Assembly (NCBI GenBank): GCA_002840905.1
Contig: PHDD01000001.1
Location: forward strand, 248,001 to 312,000
Origin: Bacteroidetes bacterium HGW-Bacteroidetes-4
GTDB taxonomy: Bacteria > Bacteroidota > Bacteroidia > Bacteroidales > SZUA-534
DNA length: 64,000 nt
Direction of reading: 5' to 3'
Numbering within the stretch: the stretch's first letter is position 1; every line of letters begins with the position of its first letter. The notes below the pieces were generated by a model. The model did no database searches. It was not told where the DNA came from and saw only the letters and a list, made by a program, of their open reading frames with translations. The translations under genes were made by a program, and so were the position numbers. Below, in pieces: positions 1-10,400 of the stretch.

Positions 1-323
1 ATAATTATAAAAGTGTTGAATAGGATAAAAGGGATAAAATGAAACAGTTTTTTCCTGTCGAATCGAAATTTTTGGTCAATCAATGCTGAAATATATAAAA
101 ACAAGAAAGGCCCATGAAGTAAGAGTAATGAAATAAAACTTGCAGAAAGGAGGTGAAAATTTATAAAAAGTTTGTTTGAAAACAAAGCGTATATGCCTGT
201 GTATAAACCCAAATAAATTAGCCAGTAAATCAGTATTTTATCATGTAGTGCCTTTTTTTTCTGTAAAACTAACACGGCAAAAAACAATGCATTGAAGGCG
301 GCTATTAAAAAAATGTATTTCAT
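1..323 (-). CDS. AraC-family regulator with membrane N-terminus (partial)
   Basis: The reading frame opens with ATG at 321-323 on the minus strand and runs off the left edge after 107 codons with no stop. The peptide is strongly hydrophobic, starts MKYIFLIAAFNALFFAVLVL, and later shows LHGPFLFLYI and FHFIPFILFN. That pattern is typical of the multi-TM N-terminal half of Bacteroidota regulators that carry an AraC-type helix-turn-helix at the C-terminus. The HTH would lie outside the window, so the regulator part is inferred from the N-terminal signature only. It could be another protein with a 7TM-like sensor domain. Confidence 0.6.
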   Translation of the reverse strand, partial: MKYIFLIAAFNALFFAVLVLQKKKALHDKILIYWLIYLGLYTGIYALFSNKLFINFHLLSASFISLLLLHGPFLFLYISALIDQKFRFDRKKLFHFIPFILFNTFII

Positions 324-861
324 TGTTTGTTTTTATAATAAATTAACTAAGTCAATATTTGCATGAATTTAACGGATGGTAGAATTAAATTGTTTTTGAT
401 TACGAGGTGATTTTGTATCTCCCGATAGCTATAGGGAATACCGACTTTTTTTATGAGCCACACATATCCTTTAAAGGTATGGAACCCTCATGAGTTATAG
501 CATGTATTACCACTCGTTTTTATTTTTAATTCTTCCATTTAATATCTAACTGTTTAAGGTTTAAATTTGGCTTATTGTATCGTGTAAGGTTTTCTAAAAT
601 TAGTGGTAAGAATATTCAAATCGGACCTTACTCCCTTTAGCAAGTCAAATTCGGGGTGTTATCAGTTGGCCGGTACATTAATTTTTTATTATAGTTGGTA
701 TTTGGGGTCAAGGTATTTTGTTTTTTGATAGTTAAACTAAAAAATTATTTCATAAACAGTTACTTGTGTGGCCAATAATATAACATTAAGTGTTTTACTG
801 GCTGAAAAAATAAAGAGCTAAATGGAAAATGTTTTTTTATTAGTTGCCGGGGTTAATTATA
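324..861. other. Intergenic region, no gene seen
   Basis: About 540 bases of AT-rich DNA without a convincing reading frame in any frame. The only structure noticed is a near-perfect palindrome at 420-437 (TCCCGATAGCTATAGGGA), one mismatch from a full inverted repeat, resembling the short palindromes scattered in Bacteroidota intergenic DNA. It should also contain the promoter of the minus-strand regulator at the left edge, but I could not identify one. Confidence 0.5.
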
Positions 862-924
862 CTTCGCTCATGAGACCGCTTCGCTTAGTTATTCGCTTCG
901 CTCATGAGACCGCTTCGCTTAGTT
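862..924. repeat. Two 29-bp direct repeats (34-bp period)
   Basis: Identical 29-base copies lie at 862-890 and 896-924, separated by 5 bases. Each copy contains the small palindrome CTCATGAG and two CGCTTCG-like segments. The second copy runs into the end of the degenerate tRNA-Lys copy at 920-1015, so the repeat and the tRNA remnant probably share an origin. No transposase or integrase is nearby. Confidence 0.75.
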
Positions 925-1015
925 CAGCTGGGGCTTTTATCTGCCTTTGGCAGGCGAACCCAGGGCCCCATTCCGCCGAGGCGGAGATGTGCTCTACCTG
1001 CTGAGTTAGTGAATT
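920..1015 (-). pseudogene. Degenerate tRNA-Lys copy interrupted by palindromes
   Basis: On the minus strand this aligns with the two intact tRNA-Lys genes just to its right: the D arm (CTCAGCAGGTAGAGCA), the T-stem 5' side and most acceptor pairs are kept. The anticodon arm is replaced by the perfect inverted repeat TCCGCCGAGGCGGA (972-985), so there is no anticodon. The T loop is expanded by a segment holding CTGCCTTTGGCAG (941-953). No CCA is encoded. It cannot be a normal tRNA; it is either a decayed third copy of the tandem array or a tRNA-like structural RNA. Confidence 0.7.
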
Positions 1016-1054
1016 AAATAGTTTTCTGGAATTTGTACTAAATGACGAAAGTAA

Positions 1055-1090
1055 ATAAAAAAAGACCTAAGGAAAATTCCAAAGGTCTTT
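1055..1090 (-). terminator. Intrinsic terminator of first tRNA-Lys
   Basis: AAAGACCT (1061-1068) pairs with AGGTCTTT (1083-1090). On the minus strand the hairpin is followed by a run of T (the A-run at 1055-1063 of the plus strand). It begins at the encoded CCA of the tRNA-Lys at 1090-1165. Confidence 0.8.
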
Positions 1091-1165
1091 GGTGATTCAG
1101 CTGGGGCTCGAACCCAGGACCCCATCCTTAAAAGGGATGTGCTCTACCTGCTGAGCTACTGAATC
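1090..1165 (-). tRNA. tRNA-Lys (anticodon TTT), copy 1
   Basis: The minus strand folds as a standard cloverleaf of 73 bases (1165 down to 1093) plus an encoded CCA (1090-1092). The acceptor stem GATTCAG/CTGAATC is fully paired, the D arm contains AGCTCAGCAGGTAGAGCA, the anticodon stem-loop CATCC-CTTTTAA-GGATG gives anticodon TTT, and the T arm contains GGTTCGAGCC. It is one of two intact tandem copies about 50 bases apart. Confidence 0.97.
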
Positions 1166-1183
1166 ATTATATAGAGAACTTCA

Positions 1184-1212
1184 TAAAAAAAGTGAAACAT
1201 AAAATGTTTCAC
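1184..1212 (-). terminator. Intrinsic terminator of second tRNA-Lys
   Basis: GTGAAACAT (1192-1200) pairs with ATGTTTCAC (1204-1212) around a 3-base loop. On the minus strand it is followed by a T-run (A-run 1185-1191 on plus). It separates the two tRNA-Lys genes, so each appears to have its own 3' end. Confidence 0.75.
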
Positions 1213-1213
1213 C

Positions 1214-1289
1214 TGGTGATCCAGCTGGGGCTCGAACCCAGGACCCCATCCTTAAAAGGGATGTGCTCTACCAGCTGAGCTACTGAATC
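1214..1289 (-). tRNA. tRNA-Lys (anticodon TTT), copy 2
   Basis: This has the same cloverleaf as copy 1, with an encoded CCA at 1214-1216 and anticodon TTT. It differs at two places: the D loop/stem side has AGCTGG in place of AGCAGG, and the acceptor 3' strand is CTGGATC, giving one U-G wobble pair. Both still fold correctly, so both copies should be functional. Confidence 0.97.
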
Positions 1290-1505
1290 GTTATTAATTG
1301 TTGAAAACCTTTGCTGTCAAAGCTTTCAGAACTTATAGCCCTTTTTTTAAAGGCGTTGCAAAGATACTACCTATATTTTATTTTCCAAACCAGGCCTTAT
1401 ATTTTTTATGTTTTTTTTTGACCTGTGTAAATATCATTTTGAATGCCAATATTTTAAATGAATTTGATTATTGTAATGCAATAAACAACTTAATCTGACT
1501 TTTAC

Positions 1506-1536
1506 TTGTTCACCACTTCCTAAACGGTTAAATTTG
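1506..1536 (+). promoter_or_regulatory. Promoter of SDR gene
   Basis: TTG (1506-1508), 20 bases, TAAATTTG (1529-1536) matches the Bacteroidota -33/-7 pattern. Transcription would start near 1543, about 17 bases before the ATG at 1560. Confidence 0.55.
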
Positions 1537-1559
1537 TTTTTTATTAGCTCGAAGGTATT

Positions 1560-2375
1560 ATGTATCAATTTAAAAATAAAGTAGTTATTATAACCGGTGC
1601 TTCATCGGGTATTGGTAAGGCCTTTGCTTATGAATTTGCAAAAAAGGGAGCAATCTTAAGTCTTGCCGCACGTAGAATTGATTTATTAAAGCAGATTAAA
1701 CTCGATTTGGAAGCTTCGGGTACCCGTGTTTTAGTTCAATCTACCGATGTAACCAGCGAAGCCGACTGCAAAAGACTAATTGAAAATACAGCCGAAACTT
1801 TTGGGGGCATCGATATTTTAATTAATAACGCCGGTATTTCTATGCGTTCTTTGTTTTCAGATGTTGATTTAAAAGTACTTAAACAATTAATGGAAGTCAA
1901 TTTTTGGGGAGCCGTTTATTGTACCAAATATGCCTTGCCATATCTACTCAAGTCTAAAGGGGTCCTGGTCGGAGTATCATCTGTTGCAGGGTTTCACGGT
2001 TTGCCCGGACGAACAGGTTATTCGGCTTCGAAATTTGCTTTACACGGTTTTTTGGAAACCCTGCGTATTGAACATTTAAAAGATGGTTTACATGTTTTGG
2101 TAATTGCTCCTGGTTTTACCGCTTCCGAAATCCGGAAGAATGCTTTAATCAGTAATGGATCACCTCAGGGAATTACCCCACGCGATGAACAAAAGATGAT
2201 GACACCGCAAAAAGTAGCCCGTATTTTAATCCGTTCTATTCGAAAGAAAAAACGAAATAAAATCATCTCGTTTTCCGGGCAGTTAATAGCCCTTATGCAA
2301 CGGATTCTGCCTGAGCAGGTCGATGCCATGATCTACCGAATCATGTCGAAGGAAGTGGATTCGCCTTTTAAATAG
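1560..2375 (+). CDS. SDR family NAD(P)-dependent oxidoreductase
   Basis: Classical short-chain dehydrogenase/reductase of 271 residues, full length for the family. The Rossmann glycine motif TGASSGIG is at residues 12-19, NNAG at 89-92, the catalytic serine region at 140-141 and YSASK with Tyr154 and Lys158. A PG motif follows at 184-185. No signal peptide is visible, so it is cytoplasmic or peripheral. The substrate is not identifiable. It is transcribed alone: a promoter lies just upstream and about 135 bases separate it from the nitroreductase gene. The C-terminal stretch rich in Arg/Lys (RSIRKKKRNK) resembles dehydrogenases acting on lipid-like substrates, but this is only a hint. Confidence 0.9.
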   Translation: MYQFKNKVVIITGASSGIGKAFAYEFAKKGAILSLAARRIDLLKQIKLDLEASGTRVLVQSTDVTSEADCKRLIENTAETFGGIDILINNAGISMRSLFSDVDLKVLKQLMEVNFWGAVYCTKYALPYLLKSKGVLVGVSSVAGFHGLPGRTGYSASKFALHGFLETLRIEHLKDGLHVLVIAPGFTASEIRKNALISNGSPQGITPRDEQKMMTPQKVARILIRSIRKKKRNKIISFSGQLIALMQRILPEQVDAMIYRIMSKEVDSPFK

Positions 2376-2510
2376 TTTGGACAAAATGTTTTAAAAAAGT
2401 TGGATTACAATTGAGCAAAGCATACCGATTAACATTCTTTGTTTTACCAATAAGCAACATTTGTTTTGGAATCCTGTTATTTCCCTATACCTTTAATAAA
2501 AAAAAAAATC

Positions 2511-3083
2511 ATGATTCATACATTGTTAGAAAAACGTTACAGCCCCAGGGCATTCAGCGAAAAACCCATATCACAAACCGATCTGAAACTACTTTTTGAA
2601 GCTGCGCGTTGGTCGCCTTCGGCCCGAAATGAACAACCCTGGCGTTTTATATATGCAAGTAAAGAAAACAGTGAAGCGTATCAAAAAATGCTTCACATTC
2701 TGAACGATTGGAACCAGCAATGGGCACAATCGGCTCCGGTTATAATAGCAGCGGTGGCCAAGAAAAACTATAATTACAAAAAAATTACCAATGAACATGC
2801 ATGGTACGATTTAGGCCAATCGGTGGCATATTTAACGATTCAAGCCACAGCATTGGAATTTTATGTGCATCAAATGGGAGGGTTTTCGAAGGAAAAAGCC
2901 AGTCAATGGCTTGGAATACCCGAGGACTTTGAACCGGTTACTATGATTGCTTTGGGTTATAAAGGGGAATTGGATCGAATTCCGGAAAGTTATCATGCCG
3001 ATGAAACAAAAATAAGGGAGCGCTTAAAATCGGAATGTATTCAATTTGAAAATCAATGGCACGAGTGTGAAAACAATGGGTAA
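2511..3083 (+). CDS. Nitroreductase family protein
   Basis: A 190-residue FMN-dependent nitroreductase-fold protein, expected to reduce nitro compounds or quinones with NAD(P)H in the cytoplasm. The FMN-binding N-terminal signature KRYSPRAF followed by RWSPSARNEQPWRF is clear, and the central LGQSVAYLTIQATALEF helix and the MIALGYKG strand match the family. I chose ATG 2511 rather than an upstream in-frame start at 2466, because the family begins at HTLLEKRYSPR and the upstream codons add only a non-conserved tail. Its stop codon overlaps the start of the next gene by 8 bases, so the two are probably translationally coupled. Confidence 0.88.
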   Translation: MIHTLLEKRYSPRAFSEKPISQTDLKLLFEAARWSPSARNEQPWRFIYASKENSEAYQKMLHILNDWNQQWAQSAPVIIAAVAKKNYNYKKITNEHAWYDLGQSVAYLTIQATALEFYVHQMGGFSKEKASQWLGIPEDFEPVTMIALGYKGELDRIPESYHADETKIRERLKSECIQFENQWHECENNG

Positions 3084-5883
3084 ACTATTACTGTTTTTGC
3101 TCTCATTTTTATCAGTGATGGAGGTTTTAGGTCAGTATTACGACAATGGCCAGGCTCCATTTACCGTGCGATGGAACCAAATTAATACCCCCAATTTTCA
3201 GGTAATTTTTCCGGAATCGCTTGATAGTATGGCTCAGGTGTATGCCTCGTATCTGGAGTTGACTTATCTCAAGGTCAATAAAAGTATTCTTGTACAACCC
3301 AAAAAATTGCCCGTGGTACTGCATCACAAAACAGTAATGGCGAATGGCGAAGTAGGCTGGGCACCAGCCCGAATGAATTTATTTACAGTGGCCCCTCAGG
3401 ATAATTATTTTCAGCCCTGGAATCAACATCTGGTATTGCACGAATCGCGCCATAACGTTCAGCTGAATAAATTAAACACCGGTACAACCCGGGTTTTGGG
3501 CTGGGTGTTTGGTGAACAGGCAGCAGCAGCCGTTTTGGGAGTGCATTTACCTTTGTGGTTTGTTGAAGGCGATGCCGTAGCCTATGAAACCGGTTCTTCA
3601 TTGGCAGGACGGGGCCGGGTCGCTGACTTTTTGATGCCCTTAAAAGCCCAGGTTAATGAAAAAGGAATCTACTCATATGGCAAAGCTATGTTTGGTTCGT
3701 ACGCCGATTATGTTCCCAATCGTTATGTTTTGGGTTACCAATTGGCTGCTGAAGGTAGTTTACGATACGGTAGTAATTTATGGAACCAGACCCTGGACTA
3801 TGTTGCCCGCAATCCCTGGCAACCACGCCCATTTTCGGCCTCAATGAAAAAACTAACCGGACTACCAGAACGCAAATTCTATAAAAATTCGCTGCAGGAA
3901 CTGAAAAATAGAAACGAAAGTAAAAGCCTTAATGCGAATAATGCCTTACCCGGGTATCGAGCCATTTCAAAGCCTACCAAATCGGAATATGTAAATTATC
4001 ACCATCCTTTGGCTATCGAGGGGGGGGTAATTGCCTATAAAACCAGCTTAAGCAACATTGGAGCATTTGTACTTATTGATTCCCTGGGAAACGAAAAAAC
4101 CATTTATAAACCCGGTTATGTTTTCGATAATGTTTTTTCGGGCAACGATAGCCTGCTGGTGTGGAATGAATACCGGGCAACACGTTTTGAACAGCAAAAT
4201 TATTCTAACATTACCATTTATAACTGGAAAAAGGGTAAATTGTATTATTTGCAAAGCAAAGGCAGAAGCTTTTATTCCACAATAAACTCGCAGGTATCAA
4301 AATTGGTTTCCTCAGAAATTGACGAATCCCTGCAATGGTCGCTTACGGTACGCGATTTGTTTTCAGGAGAGTTATTGGTCAAAGTCCACTTCGATACCCT
4401 GCAGCCAGTTCAACCTGCCTGGGATGAGTCGGGTAAAAGGATTGCCTTTATTGCAATTTCGTCAGCAGGAAAATCACTGGGCATCTTAAATATTGAAACC
4501 GGTAATACCAATTGGTTACTTACCAATGAATTGTTGGAAATTAATCAACCTTTTTTTGTTCCTGGTGGTTTGGTGCTTAAGGGAACATTTAATAACAGGT
4601 CCAATTTCTTTTATTATGACTTAAAAAACCAAACATGGTCTTTGTTAACCCGGGTACCATATGGTGTGGGTTCAGCATCGTATACCAATGGTGAGCTAAT
4701 ATATAGTGAATATACCGCCGACGGCTTTAAGATTAGCGCTCAAAAACTACTTCCCTTGTTCGAGGCCAAACCACAGGCTTATAACGACGCACTGGTTGTG
4801 CATCTGTCAAAACAGGAGCAGTTGGTCAATTTTAGAACAAACAATTTTGGTGAATTTCCTGTCACCAAATACCGGCGCATCGCACATTTAGTTAATTTTC
4901 ATAGTTGGGCACCAATAGCTATCCGGACTGAAAGCAACGAAGTGGGCATTGGTGCTACGCTTATGTCGCAAAACGTGCTGAGTTCATCGTTTTTAAGTGC
5001 CGGGTACCAATACTACAGGGCCGAAGCATTTAACGAGTTTTTTGTTAATTATACCTACAAGGGTTTTTACCCGATAATTGAAAACGAATACCGCTGGATC
5101 GATTTTGCTTTTAATTACACCGATCAAGATCTTCTAGTACACCCGGTTTCAGGGCATCAACATTATTTTAATCACAATTGGTCGTTCCCTTTTTTATTTG
5201 ATAGGGGAAAATGGTACCGCCGTTTAAATTTGGGTTTGGGCTACAATTACAACGGCGTTTACTACAATCCCAGTACTACCCTTGTCTTAAACAATAAATC
5301 GCAGCACAAAGCACGTCTTTCGGCTTTTATATATCAATTGCAAAGGACCAGCCACCGCGATTTAGCTCCCCAATGGGGACAGGTTTTTAACATGCAGGCC
5401 GAGAAATCCCTAAATGCCAAAATACCTGCATATCAATGGACTGTTTGGGGACAACTCTATTTCCCCGGGCTATTAAAAAACAACAGTTTACAATTTTATG
5501 GAGGCTTTCAGCAAAAAGAAACCGGTCTTTTTAATTTGCAAAACCGGCTTGCTTATCCCCGGGGCTATGCACTTTACGACTTCGAGACCCTGCAAACTTA
5601 CCGGATGGATTATCATTTGCCCCTTTGGTATCCCGATTTGAATGTGTTAGAAATGCTTTACATAAAACGTTTAACCCTTAACTTGTTTCACGATTTAGCT
5701 TCTTTTAACTATCAGGGTACAAAAAGGTATCAGGAATCTATTGGAGCTACCCTGGGTTTCGACTTTCATGCGTTTCGCTTTGTGGCTCCATTGCATTTTT
5801 CAATAACCTATGCACACAAGCATACCCTAAATGAACCTTACCTGGGAATTAATTTCACTGTCGATTTTAATGCCCTTTATTAA
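3076..5883 (+). CDS. Secreted HExxH metalloprotease-like/propeller/barrel protein
   Basis: A 935-residue exported protein. The signal peptide is residues 1-20, ending VLGQ. An HESRH motif (122-126) followed by WFVEGDA (161-167) is the layout of zinc gluzincins of the MA-like type: two histidines plus a downstream glutamate. The middle (about 300-600) has the repeating strand pattern of a TolB/WD40-like beta-propeller. The last 300 residues are rich in alternating aromatic strands typical of an outer-membrane beta-barrel and end in tyrosine. ATG 3076 is chosen because it starts the signal peptide directly; it lies inside the stop region of the nitroreductase gene. The substrate is unknown, and activity is inferred from motifs only. 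Confidence 0.7.
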   Translation: MGKLLLFLLSFLSVMEVLGQYYDNGQAPFTVRWNQINTPNFQVIFPESLDSMAQVYASYLELTYLKVNKSILVQPKKLPVVLHHKTVMANGEVGWAPARMNLFTVAPQDNYFQPWNQHLVLHESRHNVQLNKLNTGTTRVLGWVFGEQAAAAVLGVHLPLWFVEGDAVAYETGSSLAGRGRVADFLMPLKAQVNEKGIYSYGKAMFGSYADYVPNRYVLGYQLAAEGSLRYGSNLWNQTLDYVARNPWQPRPFSASMKKLTGLPERKFYKNSLQELKNRNESKSLNANNALPGYRAISKPTKSEYVNYHHPLAIEGGVIAYKTSLSNIGAFVLIDSLGNEKTIYKPGYVFDNVFSGNDSLLVWNEYRATRFEQQNYSNITIYNWKKGKLYYLQSKGRSFYSTINSQVSKLVSSEIDESLQWSLTVRDLFSGELLVKVHFDTLQPVQPAWDESGKRIAFIAISSAGKSLGILNIETGNTNWLLTNELLEINQPFFVPGGLVLKGTFNNRSNFFYYDLKNQTWSLLTRVPYGVGSASYTNGELIYSEYTADGFKISAQKLLPLFEAKPQAYNDALVVHLSKQEQLVNFRTNNFGEFPVTKYRRIAHLVNFHSWAPIAIRTESNEVGIGATLMSQNVLSSSFLSAGYQYYRAEAFNEFFVNYTYKGFYPIIENEYRWIDFAFNYTDQDLLVHPVSGHQHYFNHNWSFPFLFDRGKWYRRLNLGLGYNYNGVYYNPSTTLVLNNKSQHKARLSAFIYQLQRTSHRDLAPQWGQVFNMQAEKSLNAKIPAYQWTVWGQLYFPGLLKNNSLQFYGGFQQKETGLFNLQNRLAYPRGYALYDFETLQTYRMDYHLPLWYPDLNVLEMLYIKRLTLNLFHDLASFNYQGTKRYQESIGATLGFDFHAFRFVAPLHFSITYAHKHTLNEPYLGINFTVDFNALY

Positions 5884-5917
5884 ACAGTTTGACTTTTTAA
5901 TAAGCCAAATTTTATGT

Positions 5918-5925
5918 TATTTTTG
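5918..5925 (+). promoter_or_regulatory. Candidate -7 element of oxyR-like gene
   Basis: TATTTTTG matches the TAnnTTTG -7 consensus 20 bases before the ATG at 5945. No good -33 element is found at the usual spacing (the nearest TTTG, 5888-5891, is 26 bases away), which would fit a promoter needing an activator or being autoregulated. Confidence 0.4.
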
Positions 5926-5944
5926 ACCTTAAATTCTTCCTGAT

Positions 5945-6889
5945 ATGACTTTAGTTCAATTAGAATATATAATTGCTGTCGATAGTTACCGTCATTTTGT
6001 TAAAGCGGCCGATCATTGTCACGTTACCCAACCCACGTTGAGTATGCAGATTAAAAAGCTCGAAGATGAGCTCGATGTGCTGATTTTCGATCGCAACAAA
6101 CAACCTGTTGAGCCTACACCCATTGGTATGCTTATTATTTCGCAAGCCCGCGAAATAATTAAAGGACGTGACCGGATTACCGACACCATTTCGAATACAC
6201 GTGATGACCTTTCGGGAGAATTACGACTGGGGATTATCCCAACCATTGCCTCGTATCTGGTTCCTTTATTTATTCCTCAGATGGCCGAAAAATATCCTGC
6301 GCTTAAAATTTATGTCGAAGAGTTAATGACCCACGATGTGGTTTCAAAAATGAAAGAAGGAACCATCGATATCGGAATTGTTTCAACCCCTTTGGTTGAA
6401 GACGGGGTCGACGAAATGCCTATTTATTATGAGCCATTTATGCTCTATGTTTCAGAGAATCACTGCCTTTATCAGAAAGAAAAAATATCGTCGCGCGATA
6501 TCAGTGTCGACGAAATGTGGTTATTGTCCGACGGGCATTGTTTTCGTAACCACGTGATAAACCTTTGCGGCGATGCACAACAATTACCCAAAACCCTGAA
6601 GTTTGGATACAAAACCGGTTCGCTCGAGGTATTAATGAAATTTGTGGAACAGGATTACGGCTACACCCTGCTTCCTTACCTGGCTACCCTCGATTTGGCC
6701 GATAGCAAAAAACACCGCCTGCGACCATTTAAAGAACCATCACCCAAGCGCGAAATAAGCCTGATAACCCCTGCCGGATTCCTGCGCAGGAAATTGCTTC
6801 AGGCCATTAGCAAAGCCATTCAGCAAAACATTCCCAAAGATTTACGTAAGCTCGACAATGCGAAAATAGTTCCCTGGAAAACTTTGTAA
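5945..6889 (+). CDS. oxyR: OxyR-type LysR family redox regulator
   Basis: A LysR-type transcriptional regulator of 314 residues: winged HTH at 1-60 (LEYIIAVDSYRHFVKAADHC, then TQPTLSMQIKKLE) and a substrate-like effector domain from about 92. The effector domain carries GHCFRNHVINLC with cysteines at residues 199 and 208. That is the same spacing, and by my count the same numbering, as the disulfide pair of Escherichia coli OxyR. This makes a peroxide-sensing activator far more likely than a generic LysR protein. It is transcribed alone, with a -7 element just upstream and a terminator downstream. No catalase or alkyl hydroperoxide reductase gene is adjacent. Confidence 0.88.
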   Translation: MTLVQLEYIIAVDSYRHFVKAADHCHVTQPTLSMQIKKLEDELDVLIFDRNKQPVEPTPIGMLIISQAREIIKGRDRITDTISNTRDDLSGELRLGIIPTIASYLVPLFIPQMAEKYPALKIYVEELMTHDVVSKMKEGTIDIGIVSTPLVEDGVDEMPIYYEPFMLYVSENHCLYQKEKISSRDISVDEMWLLSDGHCFRNHVINLCGDAQQLPKTLKFGYKTGSLEVLMKFVEQDYGYTLLPYLATLDLADSKKHRLRPFKEPSPKREISLITPAGFLRRKLLQAISKAIQQNIPKDLRKLDNAKIVPWKTL

Positions 6890-6909
6890 TAAGAAAGCAT
6901 ACAACTTGG

Positions 6910-6950
6910 CAGGCATCGTTGTAAGTTACACACACCGCTGCCTGTTTTTT
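6910..6950 (+). terminator. Intrinsic terminator after oxyR-like gene
   Basis: CAGGCA (6910-6915) pairs with TGCCTG (6939-6944), followed by TTTTTT (6945-6950), 21 bases after the oxyR-like stop codon. The loop is long (23 bases), so strength is uncertain. Confidence 0.55.
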
Positions 6951-6971
6951 AAGCCCATTAAGCTACCCAAC

Positions 6972-7307
6972 AAGTCCCTAAACCCAACATAGATACCTTC
7001 CTGGACAATGAACAAGCCTTTTTACCGGTAAGGCAAACCTGTTTACCCATATAGCAAATCTTTCTACTATTCCCGCAAACCTTTCTGACCAACGTACAGA
7101 CCTTTCTACTATATGTACAAATCAGTTTATTATTACCACAAACCTTTCTAATCAACGTACAAACCTGTTTACTAATCCAGCAAACCTTTCTGACCAACGT
7201 ACAGACCTTTCTACCATTCCCGCAAACCTGTCTGATATCCGTACAAATATATTTGCTAATGAAGCAAACCATTCCAATAATCCTGTAAATCTGTTAGCCA
7301 ATCCGGC
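6972..7307. repeat. 21-bp imperfect tandem array, 16 units
   Basis: Between two convergent genes, 16 consecutive 21-base units run without gaps from 6972 to 7307. The core unit resembles AAACCTTTCTGACCAACGTA plus a final C, with exact copies at 7077-7097 and 7182-7202. Neighbouring units also repeat as pairs: 7077-7118 and 7182-7223 are near duplicates, suggesting a 42-base higher-order duplication. Outer units are more diverged than central ones. Because 21 is a multiple of three, every frame shows heptad periodicity. The minus frame from ATG 7272 to a stop at 6958 is open for 104 codons and encodes [VI]-C-x-x-x-[RK]-[KQ] repeats. There are no spacers, so it is not CRISPR. Confidence 0.85.
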
Positions 7308-7341
7308 AAAGACTTAAGCTCACCAGATGATGGATTTGTTG

Positions 7342-7383
7342 AAAAAAGGAGTCCTTTCCGGTTTTTTGGGAAAGAACTCCTTT
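7342..7383 (-). terminator. Intrinsic terminator of sortilin-like gene
   Basis: AAAGGAGT (7345-7352) pairs with ACTCCTTT (7376-7383), and the inner CTTTCC/GGGAAAG segments extend the stem. On the minus strand the hairpin ends in a T-run. It lies about 40 bases beyond the stop codon at 7420. Confidence 0.8.
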
Positions 7384-7419
7384 GATAAAGCTACAGCCTT
7401 TATTTTTTGGGTTCGACTG

Positions 7420-10400
7420 TTATTCTACTTTCGGAATACGGTAAGGAGTGTAGGCAGCTCCCAGTTTATCAAGCTCATTGCGTAATTCAGGCAAGGTGGT
7501 TTCAGCTATCTTGCTGAGTTTTTCGAGCAAGGGCGGAAATTCCTGTTTTAAAATATCAAACGACATTTCTGAAGTACGAGTAATTCCCGATGAACTGTTT
7601 ATCTGAGCATAAATAATGGAGTTTAACCGTCGCAGTAAAGGCATTTCAGCTGGTGGAACTTCTTCCCAACTCGCTTTTGGAGGTGTTCCTTTAAGCTTTT
7701 CCTCAATGGTATTCAATTCCCATTCCAGTTGGGTAAATTTTGCCATTAGTTCGGTGTGCGCTCCGGGTAAAGTAAGTGCATTTTGTTTCATGGCAGCAAC
7801 TTCTTCATTTATATCGTTGGTAAGAGCCATAGCTCCGTTTACCGCTTTGGAGTAGTTGCTTACCTTGCGCTGGAAAGCAACCATAACAGCACGATCGTCG
7901 GCCGGGAGGGTAAGGTTGTTTAAGGTAAGTAACTGAAATTTTTCGGGAGCGCCAATAGCGGTTGCCTGATTGTTGTGAACCAATTGCATGGTAAGGTTAT
8001 AAGTTCCGGGCATGGCATAAACTCCTCCTTCGTTTTTGGCAAAGGGATCAAAATCTTTGGTCCGGTGCTTCGAATCCGGACTGTCGTATTTTAAATCCCA
8101 ATAAACGCGTGAGATTCCTTTTTTAGGTTTTTCGGTAAGGGTCCGTATTACCTGATTGTTTTCATCCTTTACAGTGATTAAGAGGTAAGGAGGAATTTCA
8201 AGTGCTTCCTGTTTTTCAATTTCGGGTGTTACCTGAGGAATAGGTTTTGATGCAGCAAAAAGTTCTTTTTCTGCCTCTTGCCTTTTTTCTTTTAGTGTTT
8301 TGGGAACTTCTTTTAAATAATAGGTTGCAGCTGCTCCGTAAGGAGGATTCTTAGCACCAAAATAGGTTGCTCCCTGACCGTATATTTTGTCGGTTGGCAC
8401 AAATAGATTGGCATCTTTAATATTAAATAAGTGATTGGGTTGCTTCAGCATCGATTCGCTTAAGTGGCGCAAAGGTTCGTAATTATCGAGAATGTAGAAT
8501 CCCCTTCCAAAAGTAGCCAACACCAAATCGCAGGCGTCTTTTTGAATAGCCAAATCGTTAACCGATATGGTTGGAATGCCCGCTTTAAGCTGAACCCACG
8601 AAGCACCATCGTCAACCGTAAAAAATGCGCCAAATTCAGTTCCCACAAACAACAGTTTGGGGTTTACAAAATCCTGTTCAATAGTATGAACGGTACCGTT
8701 AACAGGCAAGTTGCTGCTGATTGATTTCCAGCTCTTGCCTTTGTCGGTACTTTTCAGGATGTAAGGTTTAAAATCGTCGTTCTTTCGGTTGTCGAACGAA
8801 GCATATACCACATTCTCGTCGAAACGCGATGCATAAATATCGCTCACGTAGGTATGCGCAGGAACACCCGGAAAACCGGATATTTTAGTCCAGCTTTTTC
8901 CATCATTATCACTAACCTGAATCAATCCGTCGTCGGTTCCAACAAATAGTAATACGGCTTTTACCGGCGATTCATCCAGCGAAACAATGGTGCCGTATTG
9001 CGAACTGGATACATCTTTTGCTACCGCATCGCTGCTCCAGAATTTTCCCATCACCGGCCAGGTGTTTCTGTCGATTTGTGCCGTTAAATCGTCAGAAATC
9101 ACTTCCCACGAATTGCCCCTATCATTACTTTTAAAAACTTTGTTGGCTCCCATATAAAGACGAGTGGGGGCGTGGTGGCTTAAAATTAAGGGAGCGTTCC
9201 AGTTCCAGCGGTAAGTCAGTTCATCTTTCCGTGGTTGGGGTTTGATTCCAATTTTTTCGCCGCTTTTCTTATCGTAGCGAACCACATTGCCGTATTGCCA
9301 TTCAGAATAAACAATGTCGGGATTGGTTGGATCGACACGGGACCAGAATCCGTCACCAAAAACGGTAACAATCCATTCGCCGCTGGTAACTCCAAATTCG
9401 CTGATGTTTTGCGACGGACCGCCCATGGTGGCATTATCCTGAGTTCCTCCATAAACATTGTAAAAAGGTTTGGCATTATCTACCGTAACTCTGTAAAATT
9501 GAGTAACCGGAAGGTTCGATACCTGTCGCCAGTTTTCGCCCGAATCGTAAGTAATGTAAACTCCGCCATCACCGCCTATTATCAGGTGTTTGTTGTTGGT
9601 CGGATTTATCCAAAGAGCGTGATCATCCACATGGCGATCTTTTACGCCCAGACGTTCCCAGGTTTTTCCACCATCGGTGGTAAAATGGCTGTAAGTTTCT
9701 ACTGAATAAACCTTATCGAATTGCACCGGGTCGCAATAAATTTCGTTGTAATATTGCCCACTTTCGTAATGATCGCTCATTTTGGTCCACGATTCACCCC
9801 TGTCGGTAGTGCGGAAAAAACCTCCCGATTTATTGGCTGCTTCAACAATTAAATACAGTACATCGGGATTTATGGGCGAAATGGCAATGCCCATACCACC
9901 AATATGTTCGTTGGGAAGTCCGTTCATTATTTTACGCCAGTTTTCACCGGCATCTTCTGATTTATATACTGCCGATTCCGGTCCACCACCAATTTTGGTA
10001 TGCACGTGCCTGCGACGCTGTTCGCTGGTTGCATATAAGATATCGGGATTTCGCGGGTCGAAAATCACATTATTAACACCAGTGTTTTCGCTGATGTTTA
10101 AAACTTTAGTCCAGGTTTTTCCCCGGTCCGTTGTTTTATACAAACCCCTGTCGCCACCAGGTCCCCAGGTAGAACCTTCGGCTGCAACGTATACAACATC
10201 TGAATTTCTGGGATCAATCTGAATCATTCCAATATGGCGACTTTCTTTTAAACCCATGTTTTTCCATGTTTTTCCACCGTCAATACTTAAATAAACACCA
10301 TCACCGTATCCAAGTGCTCTTTGATGGTTGTTCTCGCCCGTACCAGCCCATATTACATGCGTATTGTTTGGGTCTATAGCCAGGCAGCCTATGGAATAGG

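Follow-up and report, generated by a model that had tools for sequence, protein, structure and literature searches.

We describe a broken copy of a tRNA-Lys gene that is probably a remnant, and hence a member, of a class of elements in which a small GIY-YIG endonuclease gene is nested among tRNA sequences. The copy lies near one end of the window, by which we mean the whole 64,000-nucleotide stretch analysed from Bacteroidetes bacterium HGW-Bacteroidetes-4. Membership is assigned by resemblance, because the tRNA-Lys locus carries no GIY-YIG ORF (none was recognised by eye among the ORFs of at least 60 amino acids in positions 1-8000), and the GIY-YIG elements associated with such broken tRNA copies lie outside the window. 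The resemblance consists in the exchange of the same arms, in the adjoining intact copies of the same tRNA and in a complete-looking unit elsewhere in the genome. Such a unit has three components: an intact host tRNA, a free-standing GIY-YIG ORF, and one or more broken copies of that tRNA with a short G+C-rich hairpin in place of the anticodon, T or D arm. Taken across genomes, hairpin-swapped tRNA copies beside GIY-YIG genes point to a little-studied kind of selfish element in tRNA genes.

The tRNA-Lys locus has the following features, in window coordinates.

862-890 and 896-924: 29-nt direct repeat CTTCGCTCATGAGACCGCTTCGCTTAGTT; the second copy finishes within the broken tRNA's 3' acceptor end
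about 914-1015, minus strand: broken third tRNA-Lys copy (5' end 1015, 3' end near 921-925), delimited by alignment to the intact copy (MAFFT)
936-954: 19-nt insertion in the T loop of the broken tRNA-Lys, containing the palindrome CTGCCTTTGGCAG at 941-953
972-985: palindrome TCCGCCGAGGCGGA replacing the inner anticodon arm of the broken tRNA-Lys, from sequence comparison
1054-1097, minus strand: inverted repeat and T run 3' of the 1090-1165 tRNA, from a repeat search; terminator-like by eye
1090-1165, minus strand: intact tRNA-Lys(TTT), the immediate upstream neighbour of the broken copy (ARAGORN; Rfam RF00005, 70.2 bits)
1214-1289, minus strand: second intact tRNA-Lys(TTT) (ARAGORN; Rfam RF00005, 68.2 bits)
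1560-2375, plus strand: ORF whose sequence reads by eye as a short-chain dehydrogenase; synteny anchor for the locus

The broken copy sits downstream of both intact genes and past the inverted repeat and T run, which is absent from a scan for the terminator consensus. Read against the intact gene at 1090-1165, its first 30 bases carry three substitutions. By our own count, 5 of the 7 acceptor pairs and 3 of the 4 D-stem pairs survive, as does the T stem. The three outer pairs of the anticodon stem are also kept, and 10 nt of the intact arm, CCTTAAAAGG on the plus strand, have given way to TCCGCCGAGGCGGA. These comparisons bear out an initial annotation of this DNA, which had described a third tRNA-Lys copy that kept its D arm, T stem and most acceptor pairs while palindromes replaced the anticodon arm and expanded the T loop. 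Unlike the clear 5' or 3' types found elsewhere, the copy retains portions of both tRNA halves. ARAGORN makes no call on it, and the covariance-model search that the annotation had proposed gave no Rfam match up to E 1. A multi-copy palindrome in the organism's own genome was considered as a candidate and rejected, as TCCGCCGAGGCGGA and CTGCCTTTGGCAG each occur once in its 4.3 Mb. The two copies of CTTCGCTCATGAGACCGCTTCGCTTAGTT, spaced 34 nt apart, are likewise the only ones in the genome at up to three mismatches, and a relative of this repeat is present in the congener G003 (locus L006, about 1501-1543). Separately, positions 418-437 of the window hold TCTCCCGATAGCTATAGGGA, one mismatch from the family-widespread palindrome TCCCGATAGCTATCGGGA.

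Orthologous tRNA-Lys loci in relatives were located through the neighbouring dehydrogenase gene. Congener G003 and genome G004 show one tRNA-Lys at the locus before their contigs end, and G001 has one in the 3.1-kb locus examined. In G007, from another genus of the same family, the same locus holds a broken tRNA-Lys with TCCCGATATTCATCGGGA as its anticodon arm and a decayed 3' half, upstream of the apparent start of another tRNA-Lys at the contig end. The palindrome differs from that in the window.

A complete-looking unit is found in the window's own genome at tRNA-His (G000:C9), where the order is tRNA-His, terminator, GIY-YIG ORF (E 4.5e-20), a truncated tRNA-His whose T arm is replaced by TCCCGATTCCTGAATCGGGA, and a duplicated terminator. 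The congeners G002 and G001 have an empty site, running from tRNA-His through the terminator to the next gene; the G003 contig stops at tRNA-His. The unit was therefore gained in the lineage of the window or lost in the others, and this is the one locus at which an occupied and an empty allele were both seen. As to a possible recoding of the rescue tRNA, the organism's own tRNA-His differs from that of G002 by one T-loop base (n=1). A GIY-YIG profile matched four places in the genome, all on other contigs and none near the tRNA-Lys locus, and a query with a single GIY-YIG protein gave no match in this genome at E 1e-8.

Hairpin-bearing tRNA copies recur widely. We scanned 84,980 genomes for GGTAGAGC, from the tRNA D arm, followed by 0-10 bases, TCCCGAT, 2-6 bases and ATCGGGA, and obtained at least 116 stretches against about 1.6 expected from base counting (our own arithmetic). 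Among the matches listed, the gap after GGTAGAGC is exactly 1 nt in 141 of 167, ARAGORN calls overlap 13 of the 167, and by title Bacteroidota predominate, accompanied by Ignavibacteria, Planctomycetota, Armatimonadetes, Kiritimatiellae and candidate phyla. An intact tRNA neighbours the copy on the same strand in 120 of the matches listed, with the copy upstream in 79 and downstream in 41. Within this listed set, 68 of the 79 upstream copies preserve 80% or more of the 5' part and 3 the 3' tail, while 32 of the 41 downstream copies keep the 3' tail and 4 the 5' part. Homology to the intact tRNA stops inside the T loop in 19 of 25 traceable upstream copies, in eight of them right after TTC. For the 3'-type copies a breakpoint at GGTAGAGC is imposed by the query, which demanded that sequence, and the stem preference of loci L093-L208 is likewise fixed by their retrieval through the TCCCGAT stem. 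Many scanned loci are interrupted by contig ends, and contigs often end in repeats. The exchange is readily seen at L107, where the anticodon stem of the intact neighbour reads GGTAGAGCA-ATACACTTTTAATGTAT-GGGTC and that of the copy GGTAGAGCA-TCCCGATTTTATCGGGA-GGGTC.

In several loci a small ORF fills the DNA between the intact tRNA and the broken copy. GIY-YIG ORFs were present in 44 of 116 loci among the matches listed, many of these loci being cut by contig ends, and Pfam PF01541 was recovered in all four ORFs tested (E 5e-13 to 1e-18). The ORFs are free-standing, about 80-95 codons long, and consist of the GIY-YIG domain alone; the catalytic residues are conserved in 46-51 of 54 palindrome-associated ORFs. 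Among the matches listed, 24 GIY-YIG entries (22 distinct ORFs) end within 60 nt of the palindrome copy. Their stop codon is the TAG of the D-loop GGTAG in 12 of these 22 listed ORFs and a TAG at tRNA position 8-10 in a further 5.

Retrieval blind to the palindrome gave the same association. One GIY-YIG protein was searched against 149 genomes of the class, 61 of which had a match at E 1e-8, and a GIY-YIG profile against 20 genomes of the family, 15 of which matched; 80 loci from these searches were examined (L229-L308). They contain 114 GIY-YIG ORFs, of which 68 have an intact same-strand tRNA nearby and 60 a palindrome-bearing tRNA fragment. The other 54 have no such fragment under the criteria applied, many being weaker matches with no tRNA nearby; among them are weaker GIY-YIG genes that may be unrelated, as well as the tandem copies of L260. 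Control tRNAs far from GIY-YIG ORFs in the GIY-retrieved set gave 0 of 5 against 48 of 70, a comparison with only five controls. Tandem GIY-YIG arrays were observed at L260 and L259 (G127:C9), with copies repeating every 457 nt (ten copies) and every 379 nt (four copies).

We then consider where the palindromes sit. In the GIY-retrieved loci there are 66 palindrome-in-tRNA-fragment events across 15 types of tRNA; as some loci overlap in place (e.g. L248/L263), each combination of tRNA, palindrome and site was counted once. The count excludes terminator palindromes beyond the 3' end of a tRNA, palindromes that end at its 5' end, and palindromes that the tRNA itself natively contains. The anticodon arm accounts for 37 events, the T arm for 15, the D arm for 11 and other places for 3, and L265 has palindromes in all three arms. 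In 33 events with both flanks matched, the midpoint of the replaced interval lies 2.86 nt from a loop centre, against 4.72 nt by chance, and one of 10,000 permutations came as close. A looser test, in which all 33 events touch a loop with 27.9 expected, is weak because the intervals are long, and the midpoint test was used instead.

The stems belong to a recognisable sequence class. In the GIY-retrieved loci, CG occupies arm positions 3-5 in 53 of 66 tRNA-linked palindromes but in only 54 of the 772 remaining palindromes at these loci, and stem variants retain their pairing (TCCCGAT, TTCCGAT, CCCCGA, TCTCGTC, TCACGC and TCCGTCAG). As the sequence class is conserved, the hairpin stem is probably recognised by something. 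In eight genomes, selected for having TCCCGAT Lys copies and mostly of Algoriphagus by title (Algoriphagus through L112, L105, L099, L120, L132 and L165; the others through L178 and L174), every listed Lys copy that lacks a normal arm has the TCCCGAT stem. The stem is constant across this set, and the loop is TTT, TTTT, TTTG or TTTA, varying by genome.

Architecture, recurrence, conserved catalytic residues, the occupied and empty tRNA-His site and the tandem arrays are properties of the sequences themselves, and a mechanism that would produce them can be proposed. The endonuclease would cleave the tRNA gene at, or close to, those arms that look exchanged, and recombination between tRNA segments would then insert the unit or amplify it in tandem, with one functional tRNA kept. 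The swapped-in hairpin might rid the spare copy of its cut site, lower homology so that the unit stays, or make recombination with the intact gene less frequent; we advance this role for the hairpin tentatively and lean somewhat towards doubting it. The broken tRNA-Lys would be a copy from an array, or a unit that has lost its GIY-YIG gene. Several points weigh against this reading: the tRNA-Lys locus lacks a GIY-YIG ORF, its broken copy retains portions of both tRNA halves, 54 of the 114 retrieved ORFs have no palindrome-bearing fragment nearby, hairpins of this class are found away from tRNAs as well, and the intact tRNA beside the GIY-YIG ORF would carry the supposed target too.

The nearest relatives of solved structure are the single-domain GIY-YIG proteins of UPF0213, 1zg2 (2.9e-13) and 1ywl (1.5e-10), followed by SLX1 (4.6e-4). 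SLX1 is a structure-specific endonuclease that cuts branched DNA and is not known to be mobile. The closest known system is SegB, a GIY-YIG homing endonuclease of phage T6. SegB is a free-standing GIY-YIG enzyme, associated with no intron or intein, that accompanies tRNA genes of many isotypes and cleaves within tRNA genes. Its motif is RAWTSGAAC, and it brings about tandem amplification by way of microhomology that the 5' region of the tRNA shares with the 3' region of segB (PMC13096335). By our own comparison, the motif in reverse complement corresponds to GTTCGAATC, the T-loop consensus of tRNAs. This likeness fits the T-loop ends of the 5'-type fragments, and amplification of this kind fits the tandem arrays of tRNA and GIY-YIG gene. 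However, the bacterial elements differ from SegB in that the gene resides in bacterial genomes, is just 80-95 codons long and encodes the GIY-YIG domain alone. They also carry tRNA fragments with arms exchanged for palindromes, of which the available part of the SegB account makes no mention (PMC13096335). A tblastn search of one GIY protein against phages gave no match.

Group I introns offer a more distant parallel. They occur in tRNA anticodon loops and move by homing endonucleases (PMC3984707), and would resemble the GIY-YIG elements in both their mobility and their insertion in tRNA genes. In contrast to such introns, the GIY-YIG elements leave the functional tRNA uninterrupted, and in the seven loci searched with Rfam no group I intron was found, the matches being to tRNA only. 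Our search of the open-licence PMC literature found nothing on bacterial tRNA-nested GIY-YIG elements or on palindromes in tRNA arms.

Alternatively, the hairpins may form a palindrome family of their own that invades tRNA remnants. In its strongest form, this alternative holds that a dispersed REP-like or miniature palindrome enters hairpin loops anywhere, that tRNA remnants are merely tolerant targets and that the GIY-YIG genes are bystanders making the remnants; we regard it as unlikely on the whole, while taking it seriously. TCCCGAT(N2-6)ATCGGGA is strongly enriched in the family, with 268 places in 20 genomes against one for the reversed control (our own sum), and these palindromes occupy simple repeats and intergenic DNA. 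GIY-YIG ORFs were found in 4 of 39 loci examined around dispersed copies, so the hairpin is not peculiar to the tRNA-nested elements. TCCGCCGAGGCGGA shows a modest class-wide excess (20 of 395 genomes hold 38 matches between them, and the reversed control gives 9; our own sums) and is present in three terminator-like hairpins (L012, L017 and L020). However, dispersed TCCCGAT palindromes lie in hairpin loops, with a flank stem of at least 4, in 3 of 39 loci where 2.1 are expected, which is not above chance and speaks against a general loop-seeking element; for TCCGCCGAGGCGGA the figure is 6 of 19 against 2.0, from plus-strand loci only. Furthermore, in many tRNA copies the whole arm, beyond the loop, has been exchanged, and the TCCCGATATTCATCGGGA palindrome of G007 is the sole TCCCGAT(N2-6)ATCGGGA in that genome. 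The initial annotation's interpretation is thus supported in part: the placement of palindromes in tRNA arms and loops is borne out and recurs, but targeting of hairpin loops at large finds no support, the dispersed TCCCGAT copies being at chance level. REPs are likewise short dispersed palindromes, some inside other palindromes, but they are multicopy and carry a GTAG or CGTC tag (PMC3733652), whereas TCCGCCGAGGCGGA and CTGCCTTTGGCAG have neither tag and are single-copy.

Two observations on palindromes away from tRNAs stand apart. At L085, L087, L089 and L092, TCCCGAT palindromes are set cleanly in simple repeats (ATCAGTGT...CTGTGT or TTAGGAATTAGG), as if inserted as a unit. In G003 (L213, L214, L216 and L217), TCCCGATTTTACATCGGGA occurs with conserved flanks at many places, and this pattern suggests the terminus of some repeated element, for instance an insertion sequence, rather than a tRNA remnant.

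That the broken copies are functional RNAs, decoys or processing signals transcribed with the tRNA, whose hairpin serves folding or protein binding, strikes us as distinctly improbable. Such a role would agree with stems that keep pairing while their sequence changes, and with the constant stem and genome-specific loop of the eight mostly Algoriphagus genomes. However, the minimum free energy fold of the broken tRNA-Lys (917-1020, minus strand; z -1.59, with 10 of 200 shuffles folding as well) is not a cloverleaf. The tRNA-like branched RNA that had been envisaged therefore lacks support, and with no Rfam match either, the same holds for the suggestion of a tRNA-derived structural RNA. Most of the copies at large lack one half of the tRNA, which leaves the acceptor stem unable to close.

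We give little credence to ordinary decay of a spare tRNA-Lys in a relaxed region, with palindromes that arose by chance or as unrelated small insertions. The broken copy, uncalled by ARAGORN and Rfam, is indeed non-functional, each of its palindromes is single-copy, and the 31 G+C-rich palindromes with stems of at least 6 in the window are near the shuffle range of 21-32. However, the window has 58 G+C-rich palindromes with a stem of at least 5 and a loop of at most 4, and two or more of these fall together in 0.28% of its 96-nt intervals. Related stems occupy the same arms in G007 and in more than 100 other loci.

Attachment-site remnants of ordinary tRNA-integrating islands with a tyrosine integrase are highly improbable: a displaced 3' tRNA fragment downstream of an intact tRNA is the classic outcome of island integration and would match the downstream copies, but the inserted DNA in the cases examined amounts to no more than a few hundred bases and contains a GIY-YIG ORF, 5' and 3' fragments are both found, and we know of no such islands that leave palindromes in tRNA arms.

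The tRNA-nested GIY-YIG element thus remains our preferred reading, and a more ambitious form of it can be stated, which we offer as speculation and think unlikely. Here a domain-only GIY-YIG nuclease would attack an essential tRNA gene of unit-free cells, and the unit would supply or preserve a resistant functional tRNA. Hairpins of a conserved class, mostly with YCNCG or YCCG at the outer end, would mark the spare arms as immune to the nuclease, and the whole would constitute a widespread minimal selfish family. If so, the many palindromes of this stem class that are dispersed through Bacteroidota would be traces that the nuclease left elsewhere in genomes.

If the element reading is correct, many bacteria would harbour tiny selfish nuclease units in tRNA genes, with the places at which the enzymes cut recorded in the surrounding broken copies. 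It would provide compact nucleases by the dozen, each with a predicted target in a tRNA arm, and would warn annotators that tRNA-like copies near tRNAs may be parts of elements. It would also open a route to explaining the origin of the short palindromes that are common in Bacteroidota.
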